DNA of 64,000 bases from Tritonibacter litoralis. GTDB taxonomy: Bacteria > Pseudomonadota > Alphaproteobacteria > Rhodobacterales > Rhodobacteraceae. The notes beneath the pieces were generated by a model. That model was not told the origin of the DNA and did no database searches. It saw only the letters and a program-made list of their open reading frames with translations. This document shows positions 2,964 to 61,753 of the stretch, in pieces. Position numbers and translations under genes: made by a program. The stretch is from NCBI RefSeq assembly GCF_009496005.1, contig NZ_WIBF01000003.1, positions 186,001 to 250,000 on the forward strand, in the 5' to 3' direction. How positions within the stretch are numbered: position 1 is the first letter of the stretch; the number at the start of each line of letters is the position of its first letter.

Positions 2964-3160
2964 CGGTGCCTCCTGTTGCCTACAACAAAATGAGCAGCCA
3001 GGCGGCAAAACGGCAATTCACAGCGGCGCGATGTCACGGAGTGGTGAAATATGCCGGAAGATGTTACGGTTTTGGCCCAAGATCTACATGTTTCTACAGC
3101 GATTTGGTTTGAATTGTTTCAAGACTTCCCGGCCTTGTCGCGCCTCCCGCTAACCTTTCG

Positions 3161-5233: not shown

Positions 5234-5321
5234 AAAATGTCCATCCAAAATAAACTTTACTTGCGCGAAAAAGCGCAAGTGACGGCGGGAGTGGACTGGA
5301 TTTTGTTAGTGTTTTCAACGA

Positions 5322-5348
5322 AAAACCGCCCATAAAATGGGCGGTTTT
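5322..5348 (-). terminator. Rho-independent terminator after argG
   Basis: Perfect 12-bp stem, AAAACCGCCCAT (5322-5333) with ATGGGCGGTTTT (5337-5348), and a 3-base loop. Read on the minus strand it ends in a T-run 17 bases past the argG stop, insulating argG from the DUF898-M48 unit. Confidence 0.85.
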
Positions 5349-5365
5349 GATCAATTTTTTGGGTG

Positions 5366-6592
5366 TTAGCCTTTGATTCGCTTATTTCGCGAAGCTAACA
5401 ATTTCAACCTTAGCGCGTTCAATTGGATGAAGCCTGCCGCGTCTTTTTGGTCATACGCGCCTGCATCTTCTTCAAAGGTCACATGCGCCTCGGAGTAAAG
5501 CGAGTGGTCAGACCAGCGGCCCACGGTTTTGGCCGAGCCTTTGTACAGCTTCAGCTTCACGGTGCCAGATACATGTTCCTGGGATTTGTCGATCAGCGCT
5601 TGCAGCATCTCACGCTCGGGCGAGTACCAGAAGCCGTTATAGATCAGCTCAGCATAGCGCGGCATGATCGAATCTTTCAGGTGGCCTGCGCCGGAATCCA
5701 GGGTGATCTGTTCGATACCGCGGTGCGCTTCCAGCAGGATGTCACCGCCAGGTGTTTCATAGATGCCGCGGGACTTCATGCCAACGAAACGGTTTTCAAC
5801 GAAATCCAGACGACCAATGCCGTGCTTGCGACCGTATTCATTCAGCTGGGTCAGAATGGTCGCCGGCGACAGTGCTTTGCCATTGATGGCAACCGCGTCA
5901 CCTTTTTCAAAAGTGATTTCGATGAACTCGGGCGTATCAGGTGCATCCTCGGGGTTCACGGTCCGCTGATAGACGTAATCCGGTGCCATTTCAGCCGGGT
6001 CTTCCAGTACCTTACCTTCGGACGAGGTGTGCAACAGGTTCGCATCAACCGAGAACGGCGCTTCGCCGCGTTTGTCCTTAGCGATCGGAATTTGGTTGGC
6101 TTCGGCAAATTCCAGCAGTTTGGTTCGCGAAGACAGGTCCCACTCACGCCACGGTGCGATCACCTTGATATCGGGGTTCAGCGCATAGGCCGACAGCTCG
6201 AACCGCACCTGGTCGTTACCCTTGCCGGTGGCACCGTGGGACACGGCGTCAGCACCGGTGGCTTCGGCAATCTCAACCAGACGTTTGGAGATCAACGGAC
6301 GCGCAATCGAGGTGCCCAGTAGGTACAGCCCTTCGTAGACCGCATTGGCGCGGAACATCGGGAAAACAAAGTCACGCACGAACTCTTCGCGGATGTCTTC
6401 GATAAAGATGTTTTCCGGCTTGATGCCCAGCAACTCAGCCTTTTTGCGGGCTGGTTCCAACTCCTCGCCCTGACCAAGGTCAGCGGTGAAGGTGACAACC
6501 TCGCAGCCGTATTCGGTCTGCAACCATTTCAGGATGATCGATGTATCAAGGCCGCCAGAGTAGGCCAGCACAACTTTCTTGGGCGCGGACAT
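5366..6592 (-). CDS. argG: Argininosuccinate synthase
   Basis: Joins citrulline and aspartate with ATP to make argininosuccinate, the penultimate step of arginine synthesis. 408 residues, full length for the family. The ATP-pyrophosphatase loop [10 protein letters not shown] lies at residues ~9-18; further landmarks are [13 protein letters not shown] and the [14 protein letters not shown] stretch that binds citrulline and aspartate. A monocistronic minus-strand gene with its own terminator. argJ, another arginine gene, is about 30 kb away in this window, so the pathway is scattered. Confidence 0.97.
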
Positions 6593-6713
6593 GGGATTTC
6601 CTCTTGATCAGAACGACTGCGCCCTACCGCTTTTTTGAACCAAGGGCAAGGATTTCAGGGTTGGTGGTTTTAACCTTTTGCGTTAAGCCCGCGTCGCATT
6701 CTGTTTTTTAAAT

Positions 6714-7487
6714 ATGGTATTCACCAATATGACATATAGCTCAACAGCCTGGAATCTATTCACCCATTCGTTTCACATGCTCACCCGAAACGCGGGCACC
6801 ATGTTGAAAATCCTGGCACTGCCCTTATTGCTCGCGGTCATTCTGTGGATCGCTATCGCAGTGCAGCTGCAAGGTGACGTTATGTTCCAGCTTTACCTGG
6901 GCGAATACCAATCGATTGCAGGCCCGCTGTTTATGATCTTTGTATTTTTGGTCGCGATCAATTTGACATTGATCTGGCCGGTGATTGTCTGGCACCGTTT
7001 TGTTCTGTTGGAAACACCGGTCGGTTGGGTCAATAAGATCAAAATTGCTAGTATCTTCAGATATTTTTTCACCTACATCGGCATTATGCTGTTGGTCCTT
7101 ATACCGTCGATGATTGTCATTTTCTCGGTCACCTCCGTGGTTGATGGGCAGACGCCTGGCTTTGCTGGTCTCACCAATTTTGTGGTGTCTCCCATCATTG
7201 CATGGATTGTGTATCGGTTGACGCCGGTGCTGCCAGGCATAGCACTTGAGAAAGAAGAAAACGGTATCCTGTCAGCTTGGCGCGCGACGGAGTCCGGTTC
7301 TGGAGCTCTATTCGTCTTGGGGCTGATTTTTGGGCTCATTGGGTTTGTGCAATCGATGATATCTTTTGTTTTGCCTGAAACGCTGGCTACAATCGTGAGC
7401 GTGCTGATCTCTGTTTTCATCTTGTTGTTACAGGTTAGTGTGGCCACCACAATCTATGGTCACTATGTCGAAGACCGCCCGATTTAA
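6714..7487 (+). CDS. Hypothetical polytopic membrane protein
   Basis: 257 residues and strongly hydrophobic, with about six predicted membrane segments (for example MLKILALPLLLAVILWIAI, residues ~36-54, and FTYIGIMLLVLIPSMIVIF, residues ~120-138). I do not recognise a family. The start is uncertain: ATG at 6714 or at 6729 (MTYSSTAWNLF), neither with a clear ribosome binding site. It lies head-to-head with argG and 65 bases before ilvA. Confidence 0.6.
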   Translation: MVFTNMTYSSTAWNLFTHSFHMLTRNAGTMLKILALPLLLAVILWIAIAVQLQGDVMFQLYLGEYQSIAGPLFMIFVFLVAINLTLIWPVIVWHRFVLLETPVGWVNKIKIASIFRYFFTYIGIMLLVLIPSMIVIFSVTSVVDGQTPGFAGLTNFVVSPIIAWIVYRLTPVLPGIALEKEENGILSAWRATESGSGALFVLGLIFGLIGFVQSMISFVLPETLATIVSVLISVFILLLQVSVATTIYGHYVEDRPI

Positions 7488-7552
7488 GTATTCTTTTGCA
7501 TGCTTTGCCTCCGCCCCTTGTCACCGGGGCGGGGTTGCGTCACCAAAGGGTT

Positions 7553-8779
7553 ATGAGTGATTTTCAGTCCAAAGCCCGCGCTGCCACCCAAGCCATGCGA
7601 GACGTGTTTCCCGCAACGCCACTCCAACGAAACGTCCTGTTGTCCGAGCGGTTTGGGGCAGAGATCTACCTCAAGCGGGAGGATCTGAGCCCTGTGCGAT
7701 CATATAAGATCCGGGGCGCTTTGAATGCGATGCGCAAACAACCCGAGCAGGATCTGTTTGTCTGCGCATCCGCCGGCAATCATGCACAGGGCGTGGCCTT
7801 TATGTGCAAGCAGATGGAAAAGCGCGGCGTGATCTTTATGCCGGTGACCACACCGCAGCAGAAGATCCAGAAAACCCGGATGTTTGGCGGCGACAATGTC
7901 GAGATCCATATGGTCGGCGACTATTTCGACGACACATTGACCGCAGCGCAAGACTGGTGCGCAGCGCAGGGCGGGCATTTTCTGTCCCCCTTTGACGATG
8001 ACGATGTGATCGAAGGTCAGGCCTCCATCGCGGTAGAGATCGAAGACCAGCTGGGCCGAGTTCCGGATCAGATTATCCTGCCTGTGGGAGGTGGCGGCAT
8101 GTCTTCTGGTGTGGCCACGTGGTTTGGCGACCGGACCCATTGCTTGTTTGCGGAGCCGTCGGGCGGGGCCTGTCTGAAGGCAGCATTGCAGGCCCGCCGC
8201 CCCGTGGCGCTGGACCGGGTGGATACATTTGTGGATGGGGCGGCTGTTGGGCGTATTGGGGCCAAGCCTTTTGCCTTGTTAAAAAACACACCGGTCCCTG
8301 ACGTCTTGACCCTATCCGAGGATCGGATTTGCACCACGATCCTTGAGATGCTGAATGTGGAAGGGATCGTTTTGGAACCCGCCGGCGCATTGGCGGTCGA
8401 GGCGCTGGGCGATGTCATCAGCTGGATCCGTGGCAAAACGGTTGTGTGCGTGACGTCGGGCGGGAATTTCGACTTTGAGCGTCTGCCCGAAGTGAAAGAA
8501 CGGGCACAACGCTATTCTGGTATCAAAAAGTATCTGCTGTTGCGGTTGCCGCAGCGTCCCGGCGCGCTGAAGGACTTTTTGAATATGCTTGGCCCCGAAG
8601 ATGATATCGCGCGGTTTGAGTACCTCAAAAAATCAGCGCGGAACTTTGGCACGGTCTTGATCGGGATCGAGACAAAACGCCCCGAGAACTTTCGGGATCT
8701 TTTTGATCGCCTGGACGAAAGTGGGCTGGTGTTCACCGATATTACAAACGATGAAACTCTGGCTCAGTTCCTGATTTAA
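7553..8779 (+). CDS. ilvA: Threonine dehydratase, biosynthetic (threonine ammonia-lyase)
   Basis: PLP enzyme that deaminates threonine to 2-oxobutanoate, the first committed step to isoleucine. 408 residues from the ATG at 7553 (MSDFQSKARAATQ); an earlier in-frame start is not family-like. The PLP lysine is in KREDLSPVRSYKIRGA (K52) and the glycine-rich phosphate loop is PVGGGGMSSG. The last ~85 residues (LLLRLPQRPGALKDFLNML...) form one ACT-like regulatory domain, so this is the shorter single-ACT form, not the two-ACT E. coli type. Confidence 0.92.
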   Translation: MSDFQSKARAATQAMRDVFPATPLQRNVLLSERFGAEIYLKREDLSPVRSYKIRGALNAMRKQPEQDLFVCASAGNHAQGVAFMCKQMEKRGVIFMPVTTPQQKIQKTRMFGGDNVEIHMVGDYFDDTLTAAQDWCAAQGGHFLSPFDDDDVIEGQASIAVEIEDQLGRVPDQIILPVGGGGMSSGVATWFGDRTHCLFAEPSGGACLKAALQARRPVALDRVDTFVDGAAVGRIGAKPFALLKNTPVPDVLTLSEDRICTTILEMLNVEGIVLEPAGALAVEALGDVISWIRGKTVVCVTSGGNFDFERLPEVKERAQRYSGIKKYLLLRLPQRPGALKDFLNMLGPEDDIARFEYLKKSARNFGTVLIGIETKRPENFRDLFDRLDESGLVFTDITNDETLAQFLI

Positions 8780-8800
8780 AGGAACCGGCCTGACGGCACC

Positions 8801-9127
8801 TCAACGATTGGGCAATTCCTGCAGGAACGTCAATTTAGACTGTTCGTACATGGTAACAATCGACGGCAAATCGACGCTGTCGCCCATTCCCTGGGCCGCG
8901 GCGCGTTCACCCTCCATGCATTGCATAGAAAATTTACGAAAGCCGAGGTTCAGAGCGCTTCCTTTGAGGAAGTGCAGGTCCTGCTCCAACGCACTGCGAT
9001 CGTTTGCTCGCAATTTGTCGAGAACACCCTCGACCTCTTCCAAAAAGATCTCGACAACTTCATCGAAGTCTTCGGCGCCGATTTCCTCTCGCAACTCTGA
9101 TACTCTGGACCAATCAATCATATCCAT
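8801..9127 (-). CDS. Histidine phosphotransfer (Hpt) domain protein
   Basis: A stand-alone Hpt domain of 108 residues that relays phosphoryl groups between histidine kinases and response regulators. The phospho-accepting histidine is H52 in LHFLKGSALNLGF, a canonical Hpt motif. Start at 9127 (MDMIDW) or two codons later. It is divergent from the response regulator-phosphatase at 9291, separated by about 160 bases that should hold both promoters. That regulator is the obvious candidate partner, but this is inference. Confidence 0.88.
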   Translation of the reverse strand: MDMIDWSRVSELREEIGAEDFDEVVEIFLEEVEGVLDKLRANDRSALEQDLHFLKGSALNLGFRKFSMQCMEGERAAAQGMGDSVDLPSIVTMYEQSKLTFLQELPNR

Positions 9128-9290
9128 TTCCCGCTATTCACACTATGACATGAAGCTCGTACCTTGTAGACGGTAAAATTACGGTGAAAGAGATGCGGTT
9201 GTTCAAGTTTTAGATTTCACTGACTGTTAAAGATCTATCGGGATAGTACCTAGTGAGAATAACAGATTTATCCCCTTTAACGAGGTATCC

Positions 9291-10568
9291 TTGGTGCTGC
9301 CTGACCGAAACAACGACGATACGGAGCCGGTTCAAATGACTGGAACGATCCGGCGCGTCTTGGTTGTCGACGACAGCCGCTTGCAGCGGCGAATTCTTGT
9401 GGCCTCCTTGAAAAAATGGGGGTTCGACGTTGTCGAAGCAGACAGCGGTGCGTCGGCGATGGAGATCTGTCGTGAAGAATCCCCGGATCTGATCCTGAGC
9501 GATTGGATGATGCCGGGCATGAACGGGTTGGAATTCTGCCGCAATCTGCGGAAGTTAAATTCCGACAATTATAGCTATTTTATTCTGCTAACTTCCAAGA
9601 GTGAAAAGAATGAGGTTGCCGAAGGTTTGCACTCGGGCGCCGATGATTTTCTCACCAAACCGGTCAGCTCGGATGAATTAAGGGCGCGTATTTCGGCGGG
9701 TGAGCGGATCTTGCGGATGCAGCGGGAGTTGTCAGAGAAAAACCGGATCGTCTCGGAAACGCTGGATGAGCTGCAGCGGGTGTATGACGCCATCGACAAG
9801 GATTTGATGCAGGCGCGGAAAATCCAGGAATCTCTTGTTCCTGAATTTTCTTGTTCCTATGGCGAGTCAAACGTCAGTCTTTTGCTGAAACCTTGTGGCC
9901 ACATTGGCGGTGACCTTGTTGGAATGTTCTCACCGGGGATTAACCGGCTGGGGTTCTATTCCATCGATGTGTCGGGCCACGGTATTACCTCGGCGATGAT
10001 GACCGCGCGTCTTGGAGGCTATCTCTCATCCAGCCACTTTGACCAGAACGTCGCGATGGAGCAGCGCTTCAACCGGTATTTTGCGCTGAAGCCGCCAGAG
10101 GATGTCGCAAGCCTTTTGAATGCGCGCCTGATCGCGGACACAGGTATCGAAGAATATTTCACAATGGCCTATTGCACGGTCGACCTGCGCAGCGGGTTGT
10201 TGAAACTGGTGCAGGCCGGACACCCGCATCCGTTACTGATCCGCAAGGACGGCACGATGGAGTACATCGGCCAAGGTGGCGTTCCGGTAGGTTTGGTCCC
10301 TGACATCGCCTACACACGTGAAGAACTAGTGCTGGAACAGGGCGATCGACTGTTGTTATATTCTGACGGGTTCACCGAAGCGCGGCTGGAAAACGGTGAG
10401 ATGCTTGAGGATGAAGGCCTGATGGATCTGGTGCGCAAATGCGATACCGGTCAAAACGGGCAGGAATTCCTGGATGAGCTTTATTGGAACCTCACCCAGA
10501 TCATGTCCAAAGAGCACGGTCTGGAAGACGATGTCTCCGCAACCTTGTTTGAATACAACGGTCCCTAA
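9291..10568 (+). CDS. Response regulator fused to PP2C (SpoIIE/RsbU-type) phosphatase
   Basis: 425 residues. An N-terminal receiver domain (residues ~20-140) has acidic pocket D27/D28, phospho-acceptor D71 in LILSDWMMPG and the conserved lysine in DFLTKPV. A coiled linker (~145-180) leads to a PP2C/SpoIIE phosphatase (GGDLVGMF and YSIDVSGHGI supply metal-binding Asp residues). Such proteins dephosphorylate an anti-sigma-factor antagonist in a partner switch. Rhodobacter capsulatus RbaY, which affects gene-transfer-agent production, has this architecture, and I infer this is a candidate orthologue. GAGG at 9282 suits TTG at 9291 or GTG at 9294; an ATG lies at 9336. Confidence 0.85.
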   Translation: MVLPDRNNDDTEPVQMTGTIRRVLVVDDSRLQRRILVASLKKWGFDVVEADSGASAMEICREESPDLILSDWMMPGMNGLEFCRNLRKLNSDNYSYFILLTSKSEKNEVAEGLHSGADDFLTKPVSSDELRARISAGERILRMQRELSEKNRIVSETLDELQRVYDAIDKDLMQARKIQESLVPEFSCSYGESNVSLLLKPCGHIGGDLVGMFSPGINRLGFYSIDVSGHGITSAMMTARLGGYLSSSHFDQNVAMEQRFNRYFALKPPEDVASLLNARLIADTGIEEYFTMAYCTVDLRSGLLKLVQAGHPHPLLIRKDGTMEYIGQGGVPVGLVPDIAYTREELVLEQGDRLLLYSDGFTEARLENGEMLEDEGLMDLVRKCDTGQNGQEFLDELYWNLTQIMSKEHGLEDDVSATLFEYNGP

Positions 10569-48044: not shown

Positions 48045-48869
48045 TTAGCGCCGCGCACTCCAGCTGAGCGACACTTTGCGGCGGGTGTAAAACTCACCCA
48101 TGAGCCCGATAACCAACAGAACAAGGGCCACGGTCAACGCATACTCCCAGCTGCTGAAATGCGGGTTATAGTTCTTGAACGTATAGCCCCGCACCTGGTC
48201 GATACAGTGAAACAGCGGGTTCCAATCAAACATAACCAGCATGGATGACGGCAGCGTATTGGCGAGGAACATTTTACCAGAGGCGATCATGTTGGCGCGC
48301 TGATAGATCGTGGAGAAGATCCCAACCAGGGAAGGGGCCCAGGGTTTCATAATCAACAAAACCAGCCCGACACAGGAACCGGTCAGCCAGGCCAGCAACA
48401 TCATCGCATAGGCGGAAATCGGATCCTCGATCACCACGGGCGTAAACGCGACGTGATAGCCGAACAGGATGATAAACAACGATAAGGTTTGCAGATATAG
48501 GGACCCGATGGCGGCCGATAAGATGGCGACAATTGTGTTCATCGGCGCGTGTTGCATCATCGGGCTGCTTGGCCCTTCGGCTCCGGCCACGGCGCTCACG
48601 GCTTTGGTGTGGGTTAGAAACAGGAACACCCCGGTCATGACATACACAAGGAAATCCCCGCGGATTGCAGACCCACGCACGCCCAAGATCTGAAACATCG
48701 CAAAGAAGATAACGACAAACATAACCGCCTGAAAAATCGTAGTTCCCAGCGCCATCAGTGCGTTGTTGTGTTTGGATCGCACGCTGCGCACGATGGCGTG
48801 AAACACCACCTCGGTCATCTGAAGGAGACCAAAGAACAAAGAGGGTTTAGTTGGGCGTTGCTGAAACAT
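48045..48869 (-). CDS. ABC-2 polysaccharide-export permease (Wzm/KpsM-like)
   Basis: 274 residues (or 277 from a TTG at 48878) with about six membrane segments in ABC-2 export-permease layout (ALMALGTTIFQAVMFVVIFF; DFLVYVMTGVFLFLTHTKAV; IIDQVRGYTF-like loop near the end). Resembles KpsM/Wzm permeases, which with a separate ATPase export capsule or O-antigen. No matching ATPase gene lies in this window, so its partner must be elsewhere. Divergent from cysQ at the edge of the polysaccharide genes. Confidence 0.82.
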   Translation of the reverse strand: MFQQRPTKPSLFFGLLQMTEVVFHAIVRSVRSKHNNALMALGTTIFQAVMFVVIFFAMFQILGVRGSAIRGDFLVYVMTGVFLFLTHTKAVSAVAGAEGPSSPMMQHAPMNTIVAILSAAIGSLYLQTLSLFIILFGYHVAFTPVVIEDPISAYAMMLLAWLTGSCVGLVLLIMKPWAPSLVGIFSTIYQRANMIASGKMFLANTLPSSMLVMFDWNPLFHCIDQVRGYTFKNYNPHFSSWEYALTVALVLLVIGLMGEFYTRRKVSLSWSARR

Positions 48870-48964
48870 TGGAACCAATTGGGCTGATTGCTGCTTAATA
48901 TGACACGGAATTCTTGCTGTTCCGTTGCCTGAGTACCATAAGAGGCTTTGAGAAAGTTTTCAAA

Positions 48965-48978
48965 TTTGTACCGTTAGG
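48965..48978 (+). promoter_or_regulatory. TTTGTACCGTTA motif before cysQ
   Basis: TTTGTACCGTTAGG ends at the cysQ ribosome binding site (GGCGGAG). Its TGTACCGTTA core recurs exactly at 50024-50033 in the galU upstream dyad. Possible operator or leader element; seen in sequence, function inferred. Confidence 0.35.
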
Positions 48979-48990
48979 CGGAGAATTAGT

Positions 48991-49788
48991 GTGACTTATG
49001 ACGAACTGATCCCAGTTATTCGCAAGCTGGCGATCGAAGCCGGTGCCAAAATCATGGAGATCTACAACTCTGATGATTTTGAGGTGAAAGTTAAATCTGA
49101 CGAGAGCCCTGTCACCGTTGCTGACGAAGCAGCAGATGCGTTGATATCGGATGGTTTGCGGGCTGCATTTCCAGACATGATGCTGGTCACCGAAGAACAG
49201 TCTGCATCGCACAAAGAACGTGGCGAGACCTTTTTGATTGTTGACCCGCTGGATGGCACCAAAGAATTCATCAACCGTCGTGGCGATTTTACTGTGAACA
49301 TCGCTTTGGTCGAAAAAGGCGTGCCAACGCGCGGCGTGGTCTATGCACCGGCGCGGAACCGGATGTTCTTTACCTTGGCTGATGGCACAACGGTTGAAGA
49401 AACCGGCATCTTTGACCCGGACACAATTGGTGAAACCAAAGTGTTGAAGGTTGCCGATAGCGACAACGATGCGCTGATGGTTGTGGCATCTAAATCCCAC
49501 CGCGATCAAGCCACCGACGACTACATCAACAAGTATAACGTGAAAGACAGCAAAAGTGCTGGGTCTTCGCTCAAGTTCTGCCTGGTGGCGACCGGTGAAG
49601 CGGATATTTACCCGCGTGTTGGCCGCACCATGGAGTGGGACACCGCCGCTGGACATGCCGTTCTGTTGGGCGCGGGTGGTAAGGTTGTGCGTTTTGACAA
49701 TCACGAACCCCTTGAATACGGCAAAGAGGGTTACGCAAATCCCTTCTTTATCGCATATGCACCCGGTGTTGAGCTGAAAGAAGCTTAA
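48991..49788 (+). CDS. cysQ: 3'(2'),5'-bisphosphate nucleotidase CysQ
   Basis: Mg2+-dependent, Li+-sensitive phosphatase of the inositol-monophosphatase superfamily. It hydrolyses PAP, the by-product of PAPS-dependent sulfotransferases and of sulfate reduction, to AMP. 265 residues, GTG start with a GGCGGAG site. Metal-binding DPLDGTKEF has D85 and D88; the second site is WDTAAGHA (D217). It opens a run of polysaccharide genes that ends in a sulfotransferase-like protein, which gives PAP removal a clear local purpose. Confidence 0.92.
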   Translation: MTYDELIPVIRKLAIEAGAKIMEIYNSDDFEVKVKSDESPVTVADEAADALISDGLRAAFPDMMLVTEEQSASHKERGETFLIVDPLDGTKEFINRRGDFTVNIALVEKGVPTRGVVYAPARNRMFFTLADGTTVEETGIFDPDTIGETKVLKVADSDNDALMVVASKSHRDQATDDYINKYNVKDSKSAGSSLKFCLVATGEADIYPRVGRTMEWDTAAGHAVLLGAGGKVVRFDNHEPLEYGKEGYANPFFIAYAPGVELKEA

Positions 49789-49797
49789 TCAGCCATG

Positions 49798-49837
49798 CTG
49801 TGTCCCAAGGTTTGTCAGAATAAACTTTGGGACACAG
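49798..49837 (+). other. Long hairpin after cysQ, no T-run
   Basis: CTGTGTCCCAAGG (49798-49810) pairs with CTTTGGGACACAG (49825-49837): 13 pairs including one G-U, loop of 14. It begins 9 bases past the cysQ stop. Without a T-run it looks more like an mRNA 3'-end stabiliser or a rho-associated end than an intrinsic terminator. Confidence 0.55.
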
Positions 49838-50166
49838 AATCAATAGACGTTAAAGGGGGGATTCTTGCCGATCCGGCTTTGACGCAGCCCGCCGACATGT
49901 ATCTGTTGTACACGAACTCTAAAGAGTGTGCGGACTTGACCGTTAATGTATCAGAAGCGGGAATAGTTTGCCGAGAAGTTTAACCAATACCCACATGGTT
50001 AGGTACAAATAGTTCGAAGTTACTGTACCGTTAACAGTGGGATGACTGGTCAGCCGATTGATTTCTCCTCCTAAGCCATCGGGCTTGTCGGAAGGCCAAA
50101 GTGAAGAACCGACCCCTTGTCCTCTACTGTGACAGCGGTCATTGTGTATGAAAAAGAGAGCGAGTT
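49838..50166. other. Long non-coding stretch before galU
   Basis: About 330 bases with no convincing gene. It holds the symmetric GGTACA/TTCGAA/TGTACC dyad at 50002-50029 and presumably the galU promoter; I could not pick out a confident -35/-10 pair. Confidence 0.5.
50002..50029. promoter_or_regulatory. Symmetric operator-like dyad upstream of galU
   Basis: GGTACA (50002-50007), five bases, palindrome TTCGAA (50013-50018), five bases, TGTACC (50024-50029). All three elements share one centre (50015.5) and the outer half-sites are 22 bp apart, two helical turns. The right arm continues to TGTACCGTTA, matching the motif before cysQ. Confidence 0.45.
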
Positions 50167-51060
50167 ATGCGTAAGAAAGTTACAAAAGCTATTTTCCCAG
50201 TTGCTGGTCTTGGCACTCGGTTCCTGCCCGCAACCAAATCCGTTCCAAAAGAAATCATGACTTTGGTGGACCGCCCCTTGGTCCAATACGCCATCGATGA
50301 AGCGCGCGCTGCTGGGATCAAAGAATTTATCTTTGTGACATCTCGCGGCAAAAGCGCTCTGGAAGACTATTTCGACCATTCGCCGATCCTTGAGCAGGAG
50401 CTGCGTAAAAAAGGCAAAGATGCGCTGTTGGAAACGCTGAAGCAGACCAACATGGATTCCGGCGCGATTGCTTATATCCGTCAGCACCAGGCGCTGGGTC
50501 TGGGTCACGCGGTATGGTGTGCTCGCCGTCTGATCGCAAACGAACCCTTTGCGGTAATTTTGCCTGATGACGTGATTGCAGCAGAAACGCCATGCCTGAA
50601 GCAAATGATCGAAGCCTATGAAGAGACCGGCGGCAACATGGTTGCAGCGATGGAAGTCGCACCGGAAAAAGCCTCGGCTTATGGTGTTCTGGACGTCAAA
50701 AACGACATGGGGTCCGTGGTCGAAGCCCGCGGCATGGTTGAGAAGCCAAAACCGGATGAAGCACCGTCCAACTTGGCCGTTATCGGTCGCTACGTTCTGT
50801 CCCCGACCGTGATGAGAAACCTGAACAAGAAAAAGCAGGGCGCCGGTGGTGAGATCCAGCTGACAGATGCGATTGCAGACGACATCGCAAACGATGTTCC
50901 GGTTTATGGCTATCGCTTCCGTGGTCAGCGGTTTGACTGTGGCTCCAAAGCTGGCTTCCTGCAGGCGACCGTTGCCTTTGCTCTGGCGCGCGATGAGCTG
51001 CGTGAAGAGCTGATGGGCTATATCCAGGAAGTTGCTCAAATGGATAAGGCGGCGCAATAA
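50167..51060 (+). CDS. galU: UTP-glucose-1-phosphate uridylyltransferase
   Basis: Makes UDP-glucose, the sugar donor feeding polysaccharide synthesis. 297 residues. Nucleotide-binding FPVAGLGTRFLPATKSVPKE (~11-30) and LVDRPLVQYAIDEARAAGI match GalU. Followed by galE after 48 bases, so UDP-glucose and UDP-galactose are both provided at this locus. Confidence 0.96.
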   Translation: MRKKVTKAIFPVAGLGTRFLPATKSVPKEIMTLVDRPLVQYAIDEARAAGIKEFIFVTSRGKSALEDYFDHSPILEQELRKKGKDALLETLKQTNMDSGAIAYIRQHQALGLGHAVWCARRLIANEPFAVILPDDVIAAETPCLKQMIEAYEETGGNMVAAMEVAPEKASAYGVLDVKNDMGSVVEARGMVEKPKPDEAPSNLAVIGRYVLSPTVMRNLNKKKQGAGGEIQLTDAIADDIANDVPVYGYRFRGQRFDCGSKAGFLQATVAFALARDELREELMGYIQEVAQMDKAAQ

Positions 51061-51108
51061 GCGCCACCTTTTCATCTGACAGACTTTGACGGACAAAGGA
51101 CCAACGGT

Positions 51109-52092
51109 GTGAAAACTGTTCTTGTAACTGGCGGTGCGGGCTATATTGGCTCGCACGCCTGCAAAGCGCTCAAAGCGGCGGGTTATACGCCCGTTACTTA
51201 TGATAATCTCGTAACGGGTTGGCAGGATGCCGTTAAATTTGGCCCGTTTGAACAAGGTGATTTGACGGATCGCGCTCGGCTGGATGAGGTTTTTGCCAAG
51301 CATAAACCAATTGCTGTGATGCATTTTGCCGCGCTGAGCCAGGTTGGCGAAGCCATGTCGCAGCCTGGCAAATATTGGGCCAATAATGTGGGTGGCTCAC
51401 TCAATCTGATCGAGGCGGCAGTGGCGGCAGGCTGTATGGACTTTGTGTTCTCTTCCACCTGCGCGACCTATGGCGAACACGACAACGTTGTGTTGGATGA
51501 AAACACGCCCCAAGAGCCGCTGAATGCCTATGGTGCCAGCAAGCGCGCAGTCGAAGACATCCTCAAGGATTTTGAGGCGGCTTATGGTTTGCGCTCTGTC
51601 ATCTTCCGCTATTTCAACGTGGCAGGCGCAGATCCAGAGGCAGAGGTCGGAGAGTTCCATCAGCCCGAGACCCATCTGATCCCGCTGATGATCCAGGCGA
51701 TCAAAGGCGAACGAGATGCGTTGACCGTCTTTGGCACCGATTACGACACGCCGGATGGCACCTGTATTCGTGATTACGTCCACGTTTGCGATCTGGTCGA
51801 CGCGCATGTTCTGGGTTTGAAATGGCTGGAAGACGGCAAGGGCAGCCAGGTGTTTAACCTTGGCACCGGGTCCGGGTTCTCTGTCATGGAGGTGATTGAA
51901 CATTCTCGTTCGGTGACCAACCAAGAGGTGCCTTATAACACAGGTGATCGCCGCGCCGGGGATTGTACCAAACTGGTGTCGGGCTCGACCCGCGCGATCA
52001 AGGATTTGGGATGGGAGCCGTCACGCTCTACCTTGAATGAAATGATCGCAGATGCGTGGCGTTGGCATCAAAGCGGCCACTACGATCAGTAA
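51109..52092 (+). CDS. galE: UDP-glucose 4-epimerase
   Basis: Interconverts UDP-glucose and UDP-galactose with bound NAD. 327 residues, GTG start. Rossmann motif VTGGAGYIGSHACKAL; the catalytic YxxxK is in NAYGASKRAVEDIL; NVAGADPEAEVGE and GTCIRDYVHVCDL are typical of GalE. Its stop overlaps the ATG of the first glycosyltransferase-like gene (TAATG), so the genes are coupled. Confidence 0.95.
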   Translation: MKTVLVTGGAGYIGSHACKALKAAGYTPVTYDNLVTGWQDAVKFGPFEQGDLTDRARLDEVFAKHKPIAVMHFAALSQVGEAMSQPGKYWANNVGGSLNLIEAAVAAGCMDFVFSSTCATYGEHDNVVLDENTPQEPLNAYGASKRAVEDILKDFEAAYGLRSVIFRYFNVAGADPEAEVGEFHQPETHLIPLMIQAIKGERDALTVFGTDYDTPDGTCIRDYVHVCDLVDAHVLGLKWLEDGKGSQVFNLGTGSGFSVMEVIEHSRSVTNQEVPYNTGDRRAGDCTKLVSGSTRAIKDLGWEPSRSTLNEMIADAWRWHQSGHYDQ

Positions 52093-53141
52093 TGAACAAG
52101 GCGGGCTCTGACCTGTCGATGCCGCGTGTCTCTTGGCGCGCGGCTTATCGTTTGCGGCTCAAGCGAAAGCGCCTGCTGTGGCGTGCTTTTCGTGCGCGGC
52201 ACCAGTTGCATCCGGTTCAGTTGCGACTGCGCACCTTTGCGCCGGACGCGGTGATTGTTGTCACCGTGCTGCGCAATGAACGCAGCCGATTGCCCTATTT
52301 CCTCGATTACTACCGCAAGCTTGGCGCTGCACATTTTCTGATGATCGACAACGGCAGCGCGGACGGCAGCGCAGCCTATCTTCAGACACAACAGGACGTC
52401 TCTGTGTGGCAGTGCACGGCGGGGTATCGCGCGGCGCGCTTTGGTTTGGATTGGAGCACTTGGCTGCAGCGCAAGTATTGCCACGATCGCTGGTCTTTGA
52501 CGGTGGATGTGGATGAGCTGTTGGTGTTTGATAGCTGCGCCCAGAAGGGATTGCCGGATCTGACCCGATGGTTGGATCAGCAGGGGATCCAAGGATTTGG
52601 TGCCATGATGCTGGATCTTTACCCCAAGGGACGCCTGTCCCATCAAATCTACCAACCGGGTCAAGATCCAACAGAGGTGTTGGACTGGTTTGACACGGGG
52701 CCTTATCGGGCAGAGCGGCAAGCGCCATTGGGGAACCTTTGGCTGCAAGGAGGCGCGCGCGAGCGGGTGTTTTTTGCAGATCGCCCCGAACGATCTCCGA
52801 CATTGAACAAAATCCCATTGGTCAAATGGGATCGCGCGTATGCTTATGTGAATTCCACGCACTCCATTCTGCCGCGCGATTTGAATGCAATTTACGACGG
52901 CCCCGGCACCTCACAGCCCTCTGGCGTCTTGTTGCACACGAAATTCCTGCCAGAGATCGTTTCCAAGTCGGAAACCGAAAAGGCGCGGCAACAGCATTTT
53001 CATACACCGTCGGATTTTGACGGCTATTACGTTCAACTGATGGCAGCTCCAGATTTATGGCAGCCGCAGTCGCAGAAATATACCGGTCCCAGCCAATTGG
53101 TCGATCTGGGATTGATGTCGAGAATCGCGTGGCGTGATTGA
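52092..53141 (+). CDS. GT2-like glycosyltransferase, paralogue 1
   Basis: 349 residues from the ATG at 52092. Family-2-type (Glyco_tranf_2_4-like) features: LRNERSRLPYFLDYYRKLGA, FLMIDNGSADGS and the acidic nucleotide-sugar motif VDVDELLVF (~138-146). The first ~60 residues are very basic and could touch the membrane. Clearly paralogous to the next gene (shared FLxYYRxLG, NLWxQGG, LNKIPLVKWDR, SGVLLHTKFL). Likely adds a sugar to the surface polysaccharide; donor and linkage unknown. Confidence 0.8.
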   Translation: MNKAGSDLSMPRVSWRAAYRLRLKRKRLLWRAFRARHQLHPVQLRLRTFAPDAVIVVTVLRNERSRLPYFLDYYRKLGAAHFLMIDNGSADGSAAYLQTQQDVSVWQCTAGYRAARFGLDWSTWLQRKYCHDRWSLTVDVDELLVFDSCAQKGLPDLTRWLDQQGIQGFGAMMLDLYPKGRLSHQIYQPGQDPTEVLDWFDTGPYRAERQAPLGNLWLQGGARERVFFADRPERSPTLNKIPLVKWDRAYAYVNSTHSILPRDLNAIYDGPGTSQPSGVLLHTKFLPEIVSKSETEKARQQHFHTPSDFDGYYVQLMAAPDLWQPQSQKYTGPSQLVDLGLMSRIAWRD

Positions 53142-54294
53142 TCAAACACGTAAAATCAGAAGTTTTGTAACGCTTTCTAAATGCATTGAAACCCATGGTT
53201 TAACCGTGACATATTGGCGAAAAGCAGAGGATCTGGTCCGCGCAGCAGGCTGGGATCGCATTTTTGCAAAAGTGGGCGGACAATTGGGGCTTTGGGATTC
53301 TTATCGCATGCGATTGCGGCGCAAACGCCGGATTGTCCGGTCCATGCGCAAATCCCGTGATCTGTCAGCCCTTCAGGACAATACAAAAAACATTCGCAAA
53401 GGGGACATTTTGTTGGTCTCCACCATGCGGAATGAACAGGTTCGACTGCCCTACTTCCTGCGGTATTACCGAAATCTCGGCGTGAATCATTTCCTTTTTG
53501 TGGACAATGGTTCGGAAGATGGGACGTCCGAATATCTGTCGGGGATGGCAGACGTGTCAGTCTGGCGAACTACCGCCAGTTACAAACGGGCGACCTTTGG
53601 TGTGGATTGGATGAACCACTTGAAACGGCGCTATGCCCATGGGCATTGGGTGCTGGTGGTCGACCCGGATGAGCTGTTTGTCTATCCGTTCTGCGACACG
53701 CGACCGTTGCGGGCGTTGACGGACTGGCTGGATGATGCATCGATCCGCAGCTTTTCTGCCATGCTGCTTGATGTGTACCCCAAGGGGGCGATCAATGCAG
53801 AACCTTATGAGCCGGGCCAGGATCCCTTGGAGATCGCGCATTGGTTCGACAGCGGCAATTACTCGGTCAAGCGCAACCCTACTTATGGCAACCTATGGAT
53901 CCAGGGCGGTGTGCGGTCGCGCGTCTTCTTCCCGGATCAACCGAAAAAAGCACCGGCGCTGAACAAGATCCCATTGGTCAAATGGGACCGTAGATATGCC
54001 TATGTCAGTTCCACGCATATGTTGCTGCCGCGTGGCCTTAACCAGGTCTATGACAGCGGCGGTGGTGAGAAAGCCAGTGGCGTCCTGCTGCATACAAAAT
54101 TCCTCGACACTTTTGCAGCCAAAGCCAACGAAGAGCAAACGCGTGGCCAGCACTATGCCCATTCCGTAGAATACCAAGCCTATGTACGTGAGTTGGAACG
54201 CCAACCGCAGCTGTGGTGTAAATGGAGTGAGCGATACATCAATTGGCGCCAGTTGGAAATTCTGGGTCTGATGTCCAAAGGAAACTGGGCATGA
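53134..54294 (+). CDS. GT2-like glycosyltransferase, paralogue 2
   Basis: 386 residues from the GTG at 53134, overlapping the previous gene by 8 bases. TMRNEQVRLPYFLRYYRNLG, FLFVDNGSEDGT and VVDPDELFVYP (~174) are the GT2-type motifs. Long stretches match paralogue 1 (NKIPLVKWDRRYAYVSSTHM against NKIPLVKWDRAYAYVNSTHS). The N-terminus is about 35 residues longer. A tandem duplication followed by divergence, so the two may add successive or different sugars. Confidence 0.8.
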   Translation: MIDQTRKIRSFVTLSKCIETHGLTVTYWRKAEDLVRAAGWDRIFAKVGGQLGLWDSYRMRLRRKRRIVRSMRKSRDLSALQDNTKNIRKGDILLVSTMRNEQVRLPYFLRYYRNLGVNHFLFVDNGSEDGTSEYLSGMADVSVWRTTASYKRATFGVDWMNHLKRRYAHGHWVLVVDPDELFVYPFCDTRPLRALTDWLDDASIRSFSAMLLDVYPKGAINAEPYEPGQDPLEIAHWFDSGNYSVKRNPTYGNLWIQGGVRSRVFFPDQPKKAPALNKIPLVKWDRRYAYVSSTHMLLPRGLNQVYDSGGGEKASGVLLHTKFLDTFAAKANEEQTRGQHYAHSVEYQAYVRELERQPQLWCKWSERYINWRQLEILGLMSKGNWA

Positions 54295-55991
54295 GCGCGG
54301 TGGGCATCGTCATGATGGTGCACACAGCTTTGTCGCGTGCGGCGCAGGTGGCACGCCATTGGGCGGCGGCCGGTTGCCCGGTTGTAATCCATGTGGACTC
54401 GCAAGTGTCAAAACATGCCAATTCAGAATTCACAGCCGCATTGAAATCGCAGCCGTTGATCAGTTTTTCCAAACGGCATCGGTGTGAATGGGGCACTTGG
54501 GGCATTGTAGCTGCGTCCCAAGCCGCGTCCGAGCAGATGTTGCGGATGCACCCTGAGGTCAATCATGTGTATTTGACCTCAGGCTCTTGCCTGCCGTTGC
54601 GCCCTGTTAGCGAGCTGCAGGATTATCTGTCGGAACGTCCGACCACAGATTTCATCGAAAGCGCGACAACGGCGGATGTGCCGTGGATTGTCGGTGGGCT
54701 GAGCGTTGAGCGGTTCACCTTGCGGTTTCCTTTTTCCTGGAAACGGCAGCGCGCCTTGTTTGATGGCTATGTGCGGTTGCAGCGCAAAATCCGTTTGAAA
54801 CGTCGGATCCCACCGGGGCTTGTTCCACATATGGGCAGCCAATGGTGGTGCCTTACGCGGAAAACGTTGACTGCGATTTTGAATGATCCAGAACGCGGAA
54901 CCTATGATCAGTACTTCCGCCGGGTCTGGATTCCGGATGAAAGCTATTATCAGACGTTGGTGCGCCAGCACGCGCGCCGGATCGAAAGCCGATCGCTGAC
55001 ATTGTCGAAATTCGACTATCAGGGCAAACCGCATGTCTTCTACGATGATCACCTGCATTTGCTGCGCCGGTCCGATTGTTTTGTGGCACGCAAAATCTGG
55101 CCCCATGCGGATCGCCTGTATCATGCGTTTTTGAATCCACCTGAAAGCCACGCCAATAGAACAGAGCCAAACCCACGCAAAATCGACCGGATTTTCTCCA
55201 AAGCCGTGGAGCGCAGAACACGGGGACGGGCTGGGCTCTATATGCAGAGCCGTCTGCCAAGGTACGGTTTGGAAAACGGGGTTACGTCCGGGGAGTATTC
55301 TGTCTTTCAAGGGTTCAGCGAACTGTTTGAGGACTTTGAAACCTGGTTGTTCAAAGCCACCGAGGCCCGCGTGCATGGGCATCTGTTTGCACCCGACCGG
55401 GTGGGTTTTGTGGATGGCCAGAGCTCTTACAACGGGGCACTCAGCGACAATGCGAAGCTGCGCGATTACAATCCTGAACGGTTTTTGACAAACTTCATAT
55501 GGAACACGCGTGGCGAGCGGCAGTGTTTTCAATTTGGCCCGATGGATTCACAAGGGGCCATGGAACTGATGGCGCGGGATACCAATGCACAGATTTCGGT
55601 GATTTCCGGCGCTTGGGCGGTGCCTTTGTTTAAATCCGGCAAAGGGTTCACCGAATTGCGCCGGGACGCTGCCCGCCTGCAACAGATCGAGGCGGAGCAG
55701 CTGCGCGTTTTGCGCTCTCAATGGGCCAATGCACGCATCCGGATCTGGACCATGGCTGAATTTATTGAATCGCCCATGGAATCCTTGCAGGTCATTGTGG
55801 ATGAGATCACCAAAGGGCATCATCGCCATCTCACCGAAGCACCGCAGATGGTCAATTTGGACGGCTTTGGCCAGTTCCTGCAAAACCTGAAAAACCAGGG
55901 CATGCATCCTTATTTGATGGGGGATTTCCCCTTGGAAGCCGGTCCAGCCCAAACGCCGTCTTTGCCGCGTAAACCCTATTTGGTCCGCTGA
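54291..55991 (+). CDS. Core-2/I-branching (GT14)-like glycosyltransferase with long C-terminal extension
   Basis: 566 residues from the ATG at 54291 (ATGA overlap). Residues ~1-270 resemble Core-2/I-branching beta-1,6-GlcNAc or xylosyl transferases: VVIHVDSQVSK, CEWGTWGIVAASQAASEQML, HVYLTSGSCLPLRPVSELQD, GSQWWCLTRKTL and WIPDESYYQTLV. Residues ~300-566 are an unassigned domain (I recall DUF5927/5928 names for such proteins but cannot confirm). Probably a branching transferase for the same polysaccharide. Paralogues lie upstream and the sulfotransferase-like gene one base after its stop. Confidence 0.75.
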   Translation: MSAVGIVMMVHTALSRAAQVARHWAAAGCPVVIHVDSQVSKHANSEFTAALKSQPLISFSKRHRCEWGTWGIVAASQAASEQMLRMHPEVNHVYLTSGSCLPLRPVSELQDYLSERPTTDFIESATTADVPWIVGGLSVERFTLRFPFSWKRQRALFDGYVRLQRKIRLKRRIPPGLVPHMGSQWWCLTRKTLTAILNDPERGTYDQYFRRVWIPDESYYQTLVRQHARRIESRSLTLSKFDYQGKPHVFYDDHLHLLRRSDCFVARKIWPHADRLYHAFLNPPESHANRTEPNPRKIDRIFSKAVERRTRGRAGLYMQSRLPRYGLENGVTSGEYSVFQGFSELFEDFETWLFKATEARVHGHLFAPDRVGFVDGQSSYNGALSDNAKLRDYNPERFLTNFIWNTRGERQCFQFGPMDSQGAMELMARDTNAQISVISGAWAVPLFKSGKGFTELRRDAARLQQIEAEQLRVLRSQWANARIRIWTMAEFIESPMESLQVIVDEITKGHHRHLTEAPQMVNLDGFGQFLQNLKNQGMHPYLMGDFPLEAGPAQTPSLPRKPYLVR

Positions 55992-55992
55992 T

Positions 55993-57414
55993 ATGCCCGC
56001 AGATTTTGATTACTTTGTGATCTTTGCCGAAATGCGCACAGGTTCGAATTTCCTGGAAAGCAACCTCAACTCGATTGAGGGTGTGACAAGTTTTGGGGAG
56101 GCGTTTAACCCGCATTTTATTGGCTATCCAAATTCGGATGACGTCTTGGGCGTCACGTTGGATGCGCGTGAAAACGATCCGATGGAAATAATCAGCCGGA
56201 TCAAAGCCCACCAAGGGTTCGGTGGGTTTCGCTATTTCCATGAACATGATCCGCGCGTGTTAGAGCCGGTTTTGGATGATGCGCGCTGTGCAAAAATCAT
56301 CCTGACCCGCAATCCGCTTGACAGCTATATCTCGTTGAAGATTGCCAAAGAGACGGGGCAGTGGAAGCTGACAAATGTCAAACAGCGCAAAGATGCGCTG
56401 GTCGATTTTGATATGGCTGAGTTCACCAAACATCTGGATCGGCTGCAGGGGTTTCAGCTTCGCCTGCAGGAGGGGTTGCAAAGGCGGGGGCAAACGCCAT
56501 TTTATGTCGCGTATGAGGATCTGCAAAGCGTTGGCGTTTTAAATGGACTGGCGCATTGGCTGGGTCTGCCAAATGGCATTGACGGGTTGGATGACAAACT
56601 GAAACGTCAAAATCCGTCACCGGCTTTGTCCAAAGTCTCTAACCCAGAGGAAATGATCCAAGCGCTGGCGACAATTGACACGTTCAACCTGTCGCGTACC
56701 CCTTGTTTTGAACCCCGCCGTGGGCCCAACGTGCGCAGCTATTTGGCTGCGCCGACATGTCCGCTGCTGTTTATGCCGATGCCTGGTGCCCCAAGAGCCG
56801 AGGTGTGCAAATGGATGGCAGCGCTGGACGGTGCACCCCAGCCGTTGCTGGAGATTGGTGGACAGAAAGATCTGCGCCAATGGATGAATGCACATCCGGG
56901 TCATCGACGGTTTACGGTGCTGCGTCACCCCTTGGCCCGGGCCCATGCGGCCTTTGTCGAGGTTGTGGTACACGGCCAAAGCCAGCTGTCCAAAAAGCTG
57001 CGTCAATCGCTGCGCCAGCAGGGACATGAGGTGCAGCCAAATCTGATACAGAAGGACCGCGAAAACCACGCTGCGGTCTTCTCTGGCTTCTTGGATTTCT
57101 TAAAGCAAAACCTCAATGGGCAGACATCTGTTCGGGTGGATGCACGATGGGCAAGCCAATCGCAAATCTTGTCCGGGTTTGAGGAATTCTGCGCCCCTGA
57201 TCTGGTGCTGCGCGAAGAGGATCTGGCGGAGGATCTTCCCCATTTGGCGCGCAAAGTGACACAAAACTCTGCACCGACCCTGCAGTTCACGGGGGAAGAA
57301 ACGTTGCGACTGGCCGATATCTATACGCGCGCCTTGGAAGACAAGGCGCGTGCCGCGTATCGGCGGGATTACATGATGTTTGGGTTTAGAGACTGGGTTG
57401 CGCCAAACGGCTGA
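55993..57414 (+). CDS. Two-domain sulfotransferase-like protein
   Basis: 473 residues. The N-terminal domain has the PAPS 5'-phosphosulfate loop FAEMRTGSNFLESNL (R15-T-G-S-N19) and the 3'-phosphate motif IILTRNPLDSYISLKIA (~104-118), close to NodH-type carbohydrate sulfotransferases. The C-terminal half (~300-400) has a second 3'-phosphate-like segment, FTVLRHPLARAHAAFVEVV, but I see no clear 5' loop before it, so it may be degenerate. Likely sulfates the polysaccharide made by the preceding genes. cysQ at the other end of the locus would remove the PAP released. Confidence 0.78.
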   Translation: MPADFDYFVIFAEMRTGSNFLESNLNSIEGVTSFGEAFNPHFIGYPNSDDVLGVTLDARENDPMEIISRIKAHQGFGGFRYFHEHDPRVLEPVLDDARCAKIILTRNPLDSYISLKIAKETGQWKLTNVKQRKDALVDFDMAEFTKHLDRLQGFQLRLQEGLQRRGQTPFYVAYEDLQSVGVLNGLAHWLGLPNGIDGLDDKLKRQNPSPALSKVSNPEEMIQALATIDTFNLSRTPCFEPRRGPNVRSYLAAPTCPLLFMPMPGAPRAEVCKWMAALDGAPQPLLEIGGQKDLRQWMNAHPGHRRFTVLRHPLARAHAAFVEVVVHGQSQLSKKLRQSLRQQGHEVQPNLIQKDRENHAAVFSGFLDFLKQNLNGQTSVRVDARWASQSQILSGFEEFCAPDLVLREEDLAEDLPHLARKVTQNSAPTLQFTGEETLRLADIYTRALEDKARAAYRRDYMMFGFRDWVAPNG

Positions 57415-61396: not shown

Positions 61397-61483
61397 TGGT
61401 GCCCAGAAGAGGACTCGAACCTCCACGTCCATACGGACACTAGCACCTGAAGCTAGCGCGTCTACCAATTCCGCCATCTGGGC
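61397..61483 (-). tRNA. tRNA-Leu (anticodon CAG), copy 1
   Basis: 87 bases including an encoded CCA. Read on the minus strand: acceptor GCCCAGA, D-arm, anticodon stem CTAGC with loop TTCAGGT (anticodon CAG), long class II variable arm, T-loop GGTTCGAGTCC, acceptor TCTGGGC, A, CCA. Identical to copy 2 270 bases away. Confidence 0.93.
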
Positions 61484-61666: not shown

Positions 61667-61753
61667 TGGTGCCCAGAAGAGGACTCGAACCTCCACGTCC
61701 ATACGGACACTAGCACCTGAAGCTAGCGCGTCTACCAATTCCGCCATCTGGGC
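61667..61753 (-). tRNA. tRNA-Leu (anticodon CAG), copy 2
   Basis: 87 bases, identical to copy 1, same long variable arm and encoded CCA. The shared block also covers flanking bases out to the promoter -10. Confidence 0.93.

Follow-up and report, generated by a model that had tools for sequence, protein, structure and literature searches.

A 64,000-nucleotide stretch of the Tritonibacter litoralis genome (G000:C23:186001-250000; hereafter the window) carries at 48045–57414 a compact set of eight genes, which a preliminary description had proposed to be one locus for a sulfated surface polysaccharide. All eight are open reading frames where that description had placed them, and profile matches confirm their families. 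The first (48045–48878, minus strand, TTG start) encodes a 277-residue KpsM/VexB-like export permease of the ATP-binding cassette (ABC) type, ABC-2 (NCBIfam VexB, 9.4e-13; KpsM, 1.6e-9). It is divergent from cysQ (48991–49788; TIGR01331, 266.9 bits against a cut-off of 228.8), which encodes a 3'(2'),5'-bisphosphate nucleotidase, the phosphatase of 3'-phosphoadenosine 5'-phosphate (PAP), and which lies on the plus strand, as do all the following genes. After a gap of 378 bases (49789–50166) come galU, for UTP-glucose-1-phosphate uridylyltransferase (50167–51060; TIGR01099, 336.9 bits), galE, for UDP-glucose 4-epimerase (51109–52092; TIGR01179, 416.3 bits), and the glycosyltransferase genes GT2a (52056–53141; PF13704, 8.8e-29) and GT2b (53134–54294; PF13704, 7.5e-35). 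These are followed by a gene in which a GT14 (core-2/xylosyltransferase-like) N-terminal half is fused to a DUF5927 C-terminal half (54291–55991; PF02485 and PF19349), and by a predicted two-domain sulfotransferase (55993–57414; PF03567, 2.7e-7 at residues 301–465) that would use 3'-phosphoadenosine 5'-phosphosulfate (PAPS). All these matches from galU onward are over their cut-offs, so that the nucleotide-sugar supply, the two tandem GT2-like transferases and the GT14-like transferase with a half unassigned in the preliminary description all stand as described. The Wzm/KpsM-like permease is there as a relative of VexB and KpsM, whose models match far below their equivalog cut-offs, and a single-sequence search of the permease against the PDB gave no match at E 1.

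GT2a and GT2b are paralogues, 49% identical. The longest GT2a frame starts within galE, and the gene likely begins at the in-frame ATG at 52092, which overlaps the galE stop codon (TAATG). GT2a and GT2b overlap when their longest frames are taken, the GT14 ATG at 54291 overlaps the GT2b stop codon (ATGA), and a single base separates the GT14 gene from that of the sulfotransferase; since every junction from galE to the sulfotransferase gene overlaps or nearly abuts, the earlier statement that the genes do so from galE onward is right. A promoter scan gave 10 promoter-like sites (shuffled sequences 7.1, standard deviation 2.4) and a terminator scan 28 terminator-like sites (shuffled sequences 14.1, standard deviation 4.2); as the latter are mostly intragenic, no operons were drawn from them, though their count is above chance.

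The sulfotransferase and the GT14/DUF5927 protein

The N-terminal half of the sulfotransferase keeps the motifs MRTGSN at the 5' site and LTRNP..S..S at the 3' site, which we take to be the 5'-phosphosulfate-binding (5' PSB) and 3'-phosphate-binding (3' PB) motifs of the sulfotransferase literature, and residues M14 to N19, L104, R106 and S114 are invariant in all 104 aligned sequences. By sequence, its only PDB relative below E 1e-3 is 9vki, named LPS sulfotransferase NodH (8.7e-11). The C-terminal half is over the PF03567 cut-off in the window protein, and among 42 members of the family scanned at E 0.1, 31 match PF03567, 22 PF13469 and 8 PF00685. Its 3' motif is mostly kept (R311 in 94 of 104 sequences, R316 in all 104); its 5' motif is variable, and the basic residue is gone in the window protein. 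An AlphaFold2 (AF2) model of the whole protein has a mean predicted local distance difference test score (pLDDT) of 87.8 and a predicted template modelling score (pTM) of 0.57. Its best Foldseek matches, modest ones at E 2.9e-4 to 1e-3, are Stf0 (2.9e-4), tyrosylprotein sulfotransferases and 3-O-sulfotransferases, followed from 6e-3 by guanylate kinases, which share a P-loop-like core. The N-terminal half is thus predicted to be Stf0/NodH-like with intact PAPS motifs, and the C-terminal half Sulfotransfer_2-like and partly degenerate, in agreement with the earlier description of a two-domain sulfotransferase-like protein. Mycobacterial Stf0 and the NodH/LpsS-type sulfotransferases resemble the N-terminal half in fold and sequence; here that half is fused to a second, Sulfotransfer_2-like one.

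In the neighbouring protein, counted on the longer frame from 54243, PF02485 matches residues 48–265 (8.7e-18, 65.2 bits against a cut-off of 23.4) and PF19349 residues 283–582 (1e-155). Foldseek matches the fold of the N-terminal half to human xylosyltransferase 1 (8.4e-11) and to core-2 N-acetylglucosaminyltransferase. For the DUF5927 half, a Pfam search gave DUF5927 itself and no other family, and a search of its profile against the PDB gave nothing better than E 0.37 and no sulfotransferase. When aligned by hhalign with the N-terminal half of the sulfotransferase, DUF5927 gave collinear alignments of 80 to 192 columns with a score of 29–31 and a low probability (10–21%); the highest score among 30 column shuffles was 21.2, that of the reversed profile 15, and the two sulfotransferase halves scored 33–34 against each other. 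With the C-terminal half there was no match (probability under 1%), which counts against a sulfotransferase likeness of DUF5927; the comparisons involving that half were made only in rows without secondary structure. In an AF2 model of the GT14/DUF5927 protein (mean pLDDT 71.2; blocks in 351–550 at 74–93), the order of strands and helices at 352–523 parallels, by eye, that at 7–189 in the model of the sulfotransferase. Among 95 aligned sequences, the equivalent places in DUF5927 hold no RTGS-like or R..S consensus of the PAPS motifs. This is weak evidence, and it suggests, as a lead, that DUF5927 may be a sulfotransferase-like domain without PAPS motifs.

Conservation of the locus and the dispersed capsule genes

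Among 149 genomes sampled from the order Rhodobacterales, all placed in the window's own family Rhodobacteraceae, PF19349, which marks the GT14/DUF5927 protein, matches 144, a count that takes in a 52-residue scrap (G075), a partial gene (G117) and two contig-end pieces (G140). The same GT14 gene is found in 69 of the 73 genera sampled, and the sulfotransferase profile matches 142 of the 149 genomes. In a class-wide sample PF19349 matches 3 of 190 genomes, all three Rhodobacteraceae, with 167 of the non-matching genomes not listed by family. In named genomes, the sulfotransferase profile matched at least 596 stretches, and of the 80 kept from these, 78 bear Rhodobacteraceae names (Ruegeria, Leisingera, Phaeobacter, Roseovarius, Sulfitobacter, Salipiger and others). 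The two exceptions are L177, a record titled Nocardioides marinus DP1N28-1, which carries the locus and whose species label is probably wrong, and L224, titled as a Cytophagaceae metagenome-assembled genome, which may also be mislabelled. The locus is present in a strain of Ruegeria pomeroyi, SZCCDBG043.

Gene order was compared in 80 neighbourhoods that represent 68 genera (one for each, with 12 extra from well-sampled or divergent genera), drawn from the 144 GT14-matching genomes and mostly 19.9 kb long (18.3 kb in L047, 13 kb in L104). In 79 of the 80 the sulfotransferase gene comes directly after GT14, in the same orientation, and permease and cysQ genes are divergent neighbours in all 74 that hold both, a constancy beyond chance. 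The preliminary description had named, as what would speak against it, a scattering of the cysQ, permease and sulfotransferase genes in relatives; on these counts, they stay together. GT2b has a match beside GT14 in every neighbourhood, cysQ is present in 75, galU in 74 and galE in 38. A GT4 match occurs in 40, and in 39 loci GT4-type frames stand between galU/galE and GT2b, that is, at the place of GT2a. In relatives, the gap between cysQ and galU is often occupied by kdsB and a further GT2 gene (GT2c); kdsB is found in 54 neighbourhoods, always adjoining cysQ, and GT2c in 39, and neither has a match in the window. The kpsM, cysQ and kdsB genes of G001 and the kpsM of G148 lie outside the fetched frame, and L096 and L104, the latter starting at a contig end, hold no kpsM or cysQ in the fetched stretch. 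The locus is split in G004 and G072, where kpsM lies about 145 kb and about 94 kb from GT14, beside cysQ and kdsB; permease and sulfotransferase co-occur in both genomes.

In the window the locus sits between alkB and ptsN, with dnaJ, dnaK and alkB upstream and ptsN-, hpf-, lptB-, lptA- and lptC-like genes downstream, the lptC-like gene being below its Pfam cut-off. The sulfotransferase gene converges on ptsN in 63 of the 65 neighbourhoods holding both, and lptB/A/C matches are found in 65–67 of the 80. A conserved protein of about 200 residues, with an N-terminal hydrophobic stretch that looks exported by eye, is encoded between alkB and kpsM in 16 neighbourhoods (L046, L055, L057 and 13 more); it is not found between these genes in the window.

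A KpsM permease needs an ATPase and the stretch holds no ABC ATPase gene, so KpsT was sought elsewhere in the genome. The VexC model at E 1e-25 gave one candidate (1.1e-29), whose gene is followed by that of a KpsE-family protein (TIGR01010, 7.3e-51) and then by kdsA. The ATPase and KpsE genes are together in all 10 loci fetched from nine relatives, with kdsA adjoining in nine; the tenth is the second cluster of G125. A PF05159 search gave two proteins of the T. litoralis genome, KpsS (KpsS model, 4.8e-67) and KpsC (PF05159, 8.5e-74), both on contig C45; the gene for a Poly_export/SLBB protein (KpsD/VexA-like; VexA, 1.7e-26) lies between theirs, and riboflavin genes flank kpsS-kpsD-kpsC on both sides. 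In 11 of 11 fetched relatives the KpsC, KpsS, ribD-like and riboflavin synthase genes lie within the same 20 kb, in 10 of them with a KpsD-like gene. The Kps-type parts occupy three loci in the T. litoralis genome, on contigs C12, C23 and C45, and putative KpsM, KpsT, KpsE, KpsD, KpsC and KpsS are all present; they are related to the models but do not qualify as equivalogs. Two other assignments were rejected: a KpsT between alkB and kpsM in relatives, where the gap of about 600 bases holds in 16 loci the other protein of about 200 residues, and a second KpsM beside kpsE, where the 277-residue gene is kdsA.

The genome's own kdsB-like gene lies outside the window, the best match being on C54 (L139 6229-14149); it is 57% identical to a relative's locus copy and adjoins SIS-CBS (KdsD/KpsF-like), YjbH, PGM and UDP-sugar dehydrogenase genes. 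We rejected kdsB as proof of a capsule, for it is often a genome's only strong PF02348 match and remains where the capsule genes are gone. The T. litoralis genome also holds a second KpsE-like gene with a weak KpsM-like one (G000:C54:91210-93509), and G125 a second KpsE/KpsT-like pair (L163), which suggests an accessory ABC-type polysaccharide cluster.

KpsS (E 1e-20) and KpsE are each found in 145 of the 149 genomes, and the same four, G060, G075, G085 and G094, lack both; they also lack the sulfotransferase, a full GT14 gene and a close KpsM. Sulfotransferase and KpsS occur together in 142 genomes, the sulfotransferase alone in none, KpsS alone in three and neither in four (Fisher test, 1.8e-6, and 5.1e-10 for sulfotransferase with GT14, kinship being ignored in both), and no genome has a sulfotransferase match without GT14. 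KpsT (VexC, E 1e-25), compared in 16 genomes of a 31-genome set, occurs in all 10 that carry the locus and in none of the six that do not. A close KpsM (at least 42% identity) is present in each of the 25 tested genomes that have the locus and missing from the six that lack it; two of these six show weak matches of 21–26%. Because the Fisher tests ignore kinship, absences within a genus are the stronger point: G060 lacks the system that other sampled members of its genus (G058, G065, G080) hold in the form of GT14, sulfotransferase, KpsS and KpsE, and so does G075 relative to G031, G034 and G112.

What stands at the corresponding sites varies. The old site in G085 has the order alkB-kdsB-galU-galE-ptsN and gave no match to kpsM, cysQ, the glycosyltransferases, GT14 or sulfotransferase; the G094 site keeps cysQ, kdsB and galU. 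In G075 cysQ, kdsB, galU and galE remain, as do scraps of GT2b and GT14, and its stretch (L140) has no match to ptsN-hpf-lptBAC; beside the scraps (L140 355-8100) are genes for a GT2, a major facilitator superfamily transporter, a murein endopeptidase and a phytase-like protein. For G060 the view covers the stretch around kdsB (L141), whose contig is not the one that carries cysQ. The G110 site keeps cysQ, kdsB, galU and a GT4 match, and the G141 site cysQ, kdsB and galE. In G117 the GT14 gene is broken by a gap and the sulfotransferase is whole.

Elsewhere in the window, two genes for tRNA-Leu, both with anticodon cag, lie on the minus strand at 61397–61483 and 61667–61753, about 180 bases apart, and the region at about 3001–10000, with a G+C content of 49–56% against mostly 53–61% in the remainder, is a possible acquired segment.

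The capsule reading and its alternatives

From the observed genes, families, gene order, conservation and joint absences we infer that the scattered parts belong to a single machine, that its polymer would be a capsule and sulfated, and which sugars it would draw on. The relatives of kpsT, kpsE, kpsD, kpsC and kpsS elsewhere in the genome point to a Kdo (3-deoxy-D-manno-octulosonic acid)-linked, ABC-type capsule and not to a generic exopolysaccharide, and we consider it probable that the system makes a sulfated, Kdo-linked, ABC-exported (group 2-like) capsule, encoded in three loci and close to a core trait of Rhodobacteraceae. One locus for a sulfated surface polysaccharide, as first proposed, remains the best reading of these genes in that the set stays together, and has to be widened in that the locus is only part of the system. 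In such a system KpsS and KpsC, encoded between the riboflavin genes, would place a beta-Kdo linker on lipid, GalU and GalE would provide UDP-glucose and UDP-galactose, and GT2a (or GT4), GT2b and the GT14/DUF5927 enzyme would lengthen the glycan in the cytoplasm. The product of the gene at 55993 would move sulfate from PAPS onto the glycan through its N-terminal domain, and the export machinery would consist of KpsM from the window locus, the KpsT and KpsE whose genes adjoin kdsA, and the outer-membrane protein resembling KpsD. CysQ would clear PAP as a general enzyme, not as a dedicated partner.

On this last point the preliminary description had gone further, reasoning that cysQ in the same locus made sense for PAPS-dependent sulfation. 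As a constant neighbour of the permease gene cysQ stands; it is not tied to sulfation. Each of 31 genomes has one CysQ, and only one, over the cut-off, and the six among them that lack GT14 and sulfotransferase are no exception; for this reason we rejected CysQ as a dedicated sulfation partner and do not take the position of its gene as evidence of sulfation. CysQ is the cell's general PAP phosphatase, and its place in the locus may still be useful. Adenosine 5'-phosphosulfate (APS) kinase is found in 30 of the 31 genomes, T. litoralis included, and in G085 cysQ adjoins its gene.

Several other observations weigh, like the CysQ of those six genomes, against a sulfated group 2-like capsule. The genes of Escherichia coli group 2 capsules form a single contiguous kps cluster, and here they lie in three separate loci. 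Scores fall below the NCBIfam cut-offs for KpsM/VexB (48.5 of 297 and 38.1 of 300 bits), KpsT (VexC, 103.4 of 313), KpsE (BexC/CtrB/KpsE subfamily, 173.4 of 437.5) and KpsS (226.9 of 600), and for KpsC no NCBIfam model matched at 1e-6. A second KpsE-like gene occurs in many genomes, and a weak second KpsM-like one in some, so that partners are assigned by co-occurrence only. Weak PF05159 matches remain in G060 and G075, and G038, which has the locus, is the one genome of the 31 scanned in which no APS kinase was found. In G059 KpsS, KpsE, KpsM and GT14 are present and only the sulfotransferase is missing, so sulfation would not be indispensable. KpsS and KpsE occur without the locus in G110 and G141; as these two genomes also show no GT14, sulfotransferase, close KpsM or VexC-like KpsT at E 1e-25, they probably make another capsule. 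Capsule, sulfate and Kdo linker are all predicted here from genes alone.

It is improbable that the locus instead sulfates and extends lipopolysaccharide (LPS). Its place beside lptB-lptA-lptC, the kdsB that adjoins cysQ in most neighbourhoods, and the name of the PDB relative of the N-terminal domain would all suit that role, yet G085 and G094 retain lptBAC, kdsB and galU but yielded none of the glycosyltransferases and no GT14, sulfotransferase or close KpsM, and the absences track KpsS, KpsE, KpsT and KpsM, which are capsule-type genes. We likewise think it unlikely that a capsule is made while the last gene of the locus sulfates another molecule, such as a lipid or a secreted metabolite, or acts with the GT14 enzyme in a structural role. 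G059, with everything except the sulfotransferase, G117, with a whole sulfotransferase and a broken GT14, and the eroded 5' PAPS motif of the C-terminal half could be so explained; against this, the sulfotransferase gene adjoins GT14 in nearly every neighbourhood, the sulfotransferase was found in no GT14-less genome of the 149, and the N-terminal PAPS motifs are invariant.

A short Kdo-linked glycolipid in place of a long capsule, as three or four glycosyltransferases and no evident polymerase might indicate, is very unlikely. The small and little-changing glycosyltransferase inventory of the window and the 80 neighbourhoods would fit such a product, capsule repeats being usually strain-variable, but ABC-dependent capsules need no separate Wzy polymerase, and the genome has homologues of KpsD and KpsE, proteins that in known capsule systems reach across the envelope.

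Set beside known systems, the predicted capsule would be of a known kind. Passages of PMC11041684 describe the KpsMT-KpsE mechanism and a Kdo linker made by KpsS/KpsC; the group 2 capsules of E. coli and Pasteurella treated there are alike in homologues of KpsM, KpsT, KpsE, KpsD, KpsC and KpsS and in Kdo supply. They differ from the present system in its dispersal and its sub-cut-off NCBIfam scores, in the sulfotransferase and GT14/DUF5927 genes of its polymer locus, and in a gene set that changes little across the family. The sulfated capsular polysaccharide of Vibrio sp. KMM 8419, its structure determined by nuclear magnetic resonance, shares ABC-type kps export genes, PAPS supply and sulfotransferases, the last likened by description; its genes form one 80-gene cluster, reported without kpsC, that differs in another strain of the same species (PMC11641403). 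The KpsS of Mesorhizobium loti (Townsend and Keating, 2008, as cited in a passage of the sulfotransferase review PMC11625862) is also an alphaproteobacterial surface polysaccharide or glycolipid sulfotransferase, likened here by description and with the name KpsS used differently. Within Rhodobacteraceae, the Rhodobacter capsulatus capsule that is the receptor of the gene transfer agent RcGTA is assigned to rcc01081-01086 with wzc-wzb-wza export (passages of PMC10218006; also PMC13420450 and PMC9552610), and these genes are absent from one strain of that species (PMC10218006). On the gene list of PMC10218006 it is apparently another cluster, and we set identity with it aside.

Parts of the machine have been reported before: kpsS (SPO1757) is listed as having a small effect on fitness in an assay of mutants (PMC10041152), KpsC and KpsT are named in a figure legend of Roseobacter transcriptomics and membrane proteomics (PMC10090131), and PMC3230580 lists a sulfotransferase among unique proteins. 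Among the matches listed from open-access PubMed Central (PMC) full text, we found no description of a sulfated capsule of Rhodobacteraceae and no account joining these parts, and DUF5927 is not mentioned in that full text. The split arrangement, the family-wide constancy and the pairing of GT14/DUF5927 with a two-domain sulfotransferase are new to us, within a known kind of system.

Abundant in the sea, Rhodobacteraceae live on algae and surfaces. Capsule loci are usually fast-changing, differing even between strains. A GT14 gene in 69 of 73 genera and GT2b in all 80 neighbourhoods run against that picture. Tentatively, and as something possible though short of probable, we suggest that one little-changing sulfated capsule is found family-wide and is lost rarely and nearly as a unit, and that it is built by a family-specific GT14 enzyme whose PAPS-less, sulfotransferase-fold DUF5927 half may bind or orient the glycan for the neighbouring sulfotransferase. 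Should the ancestor shared by the family have had a sulfated capsule, sulfate at the cell surface would count as a fundamental character of Rhodobacteraceae, and this would bear on their attachment, on the adsorption of phages and gene transfer agents, and on the supply of sulfated polysaccharides in the sea.

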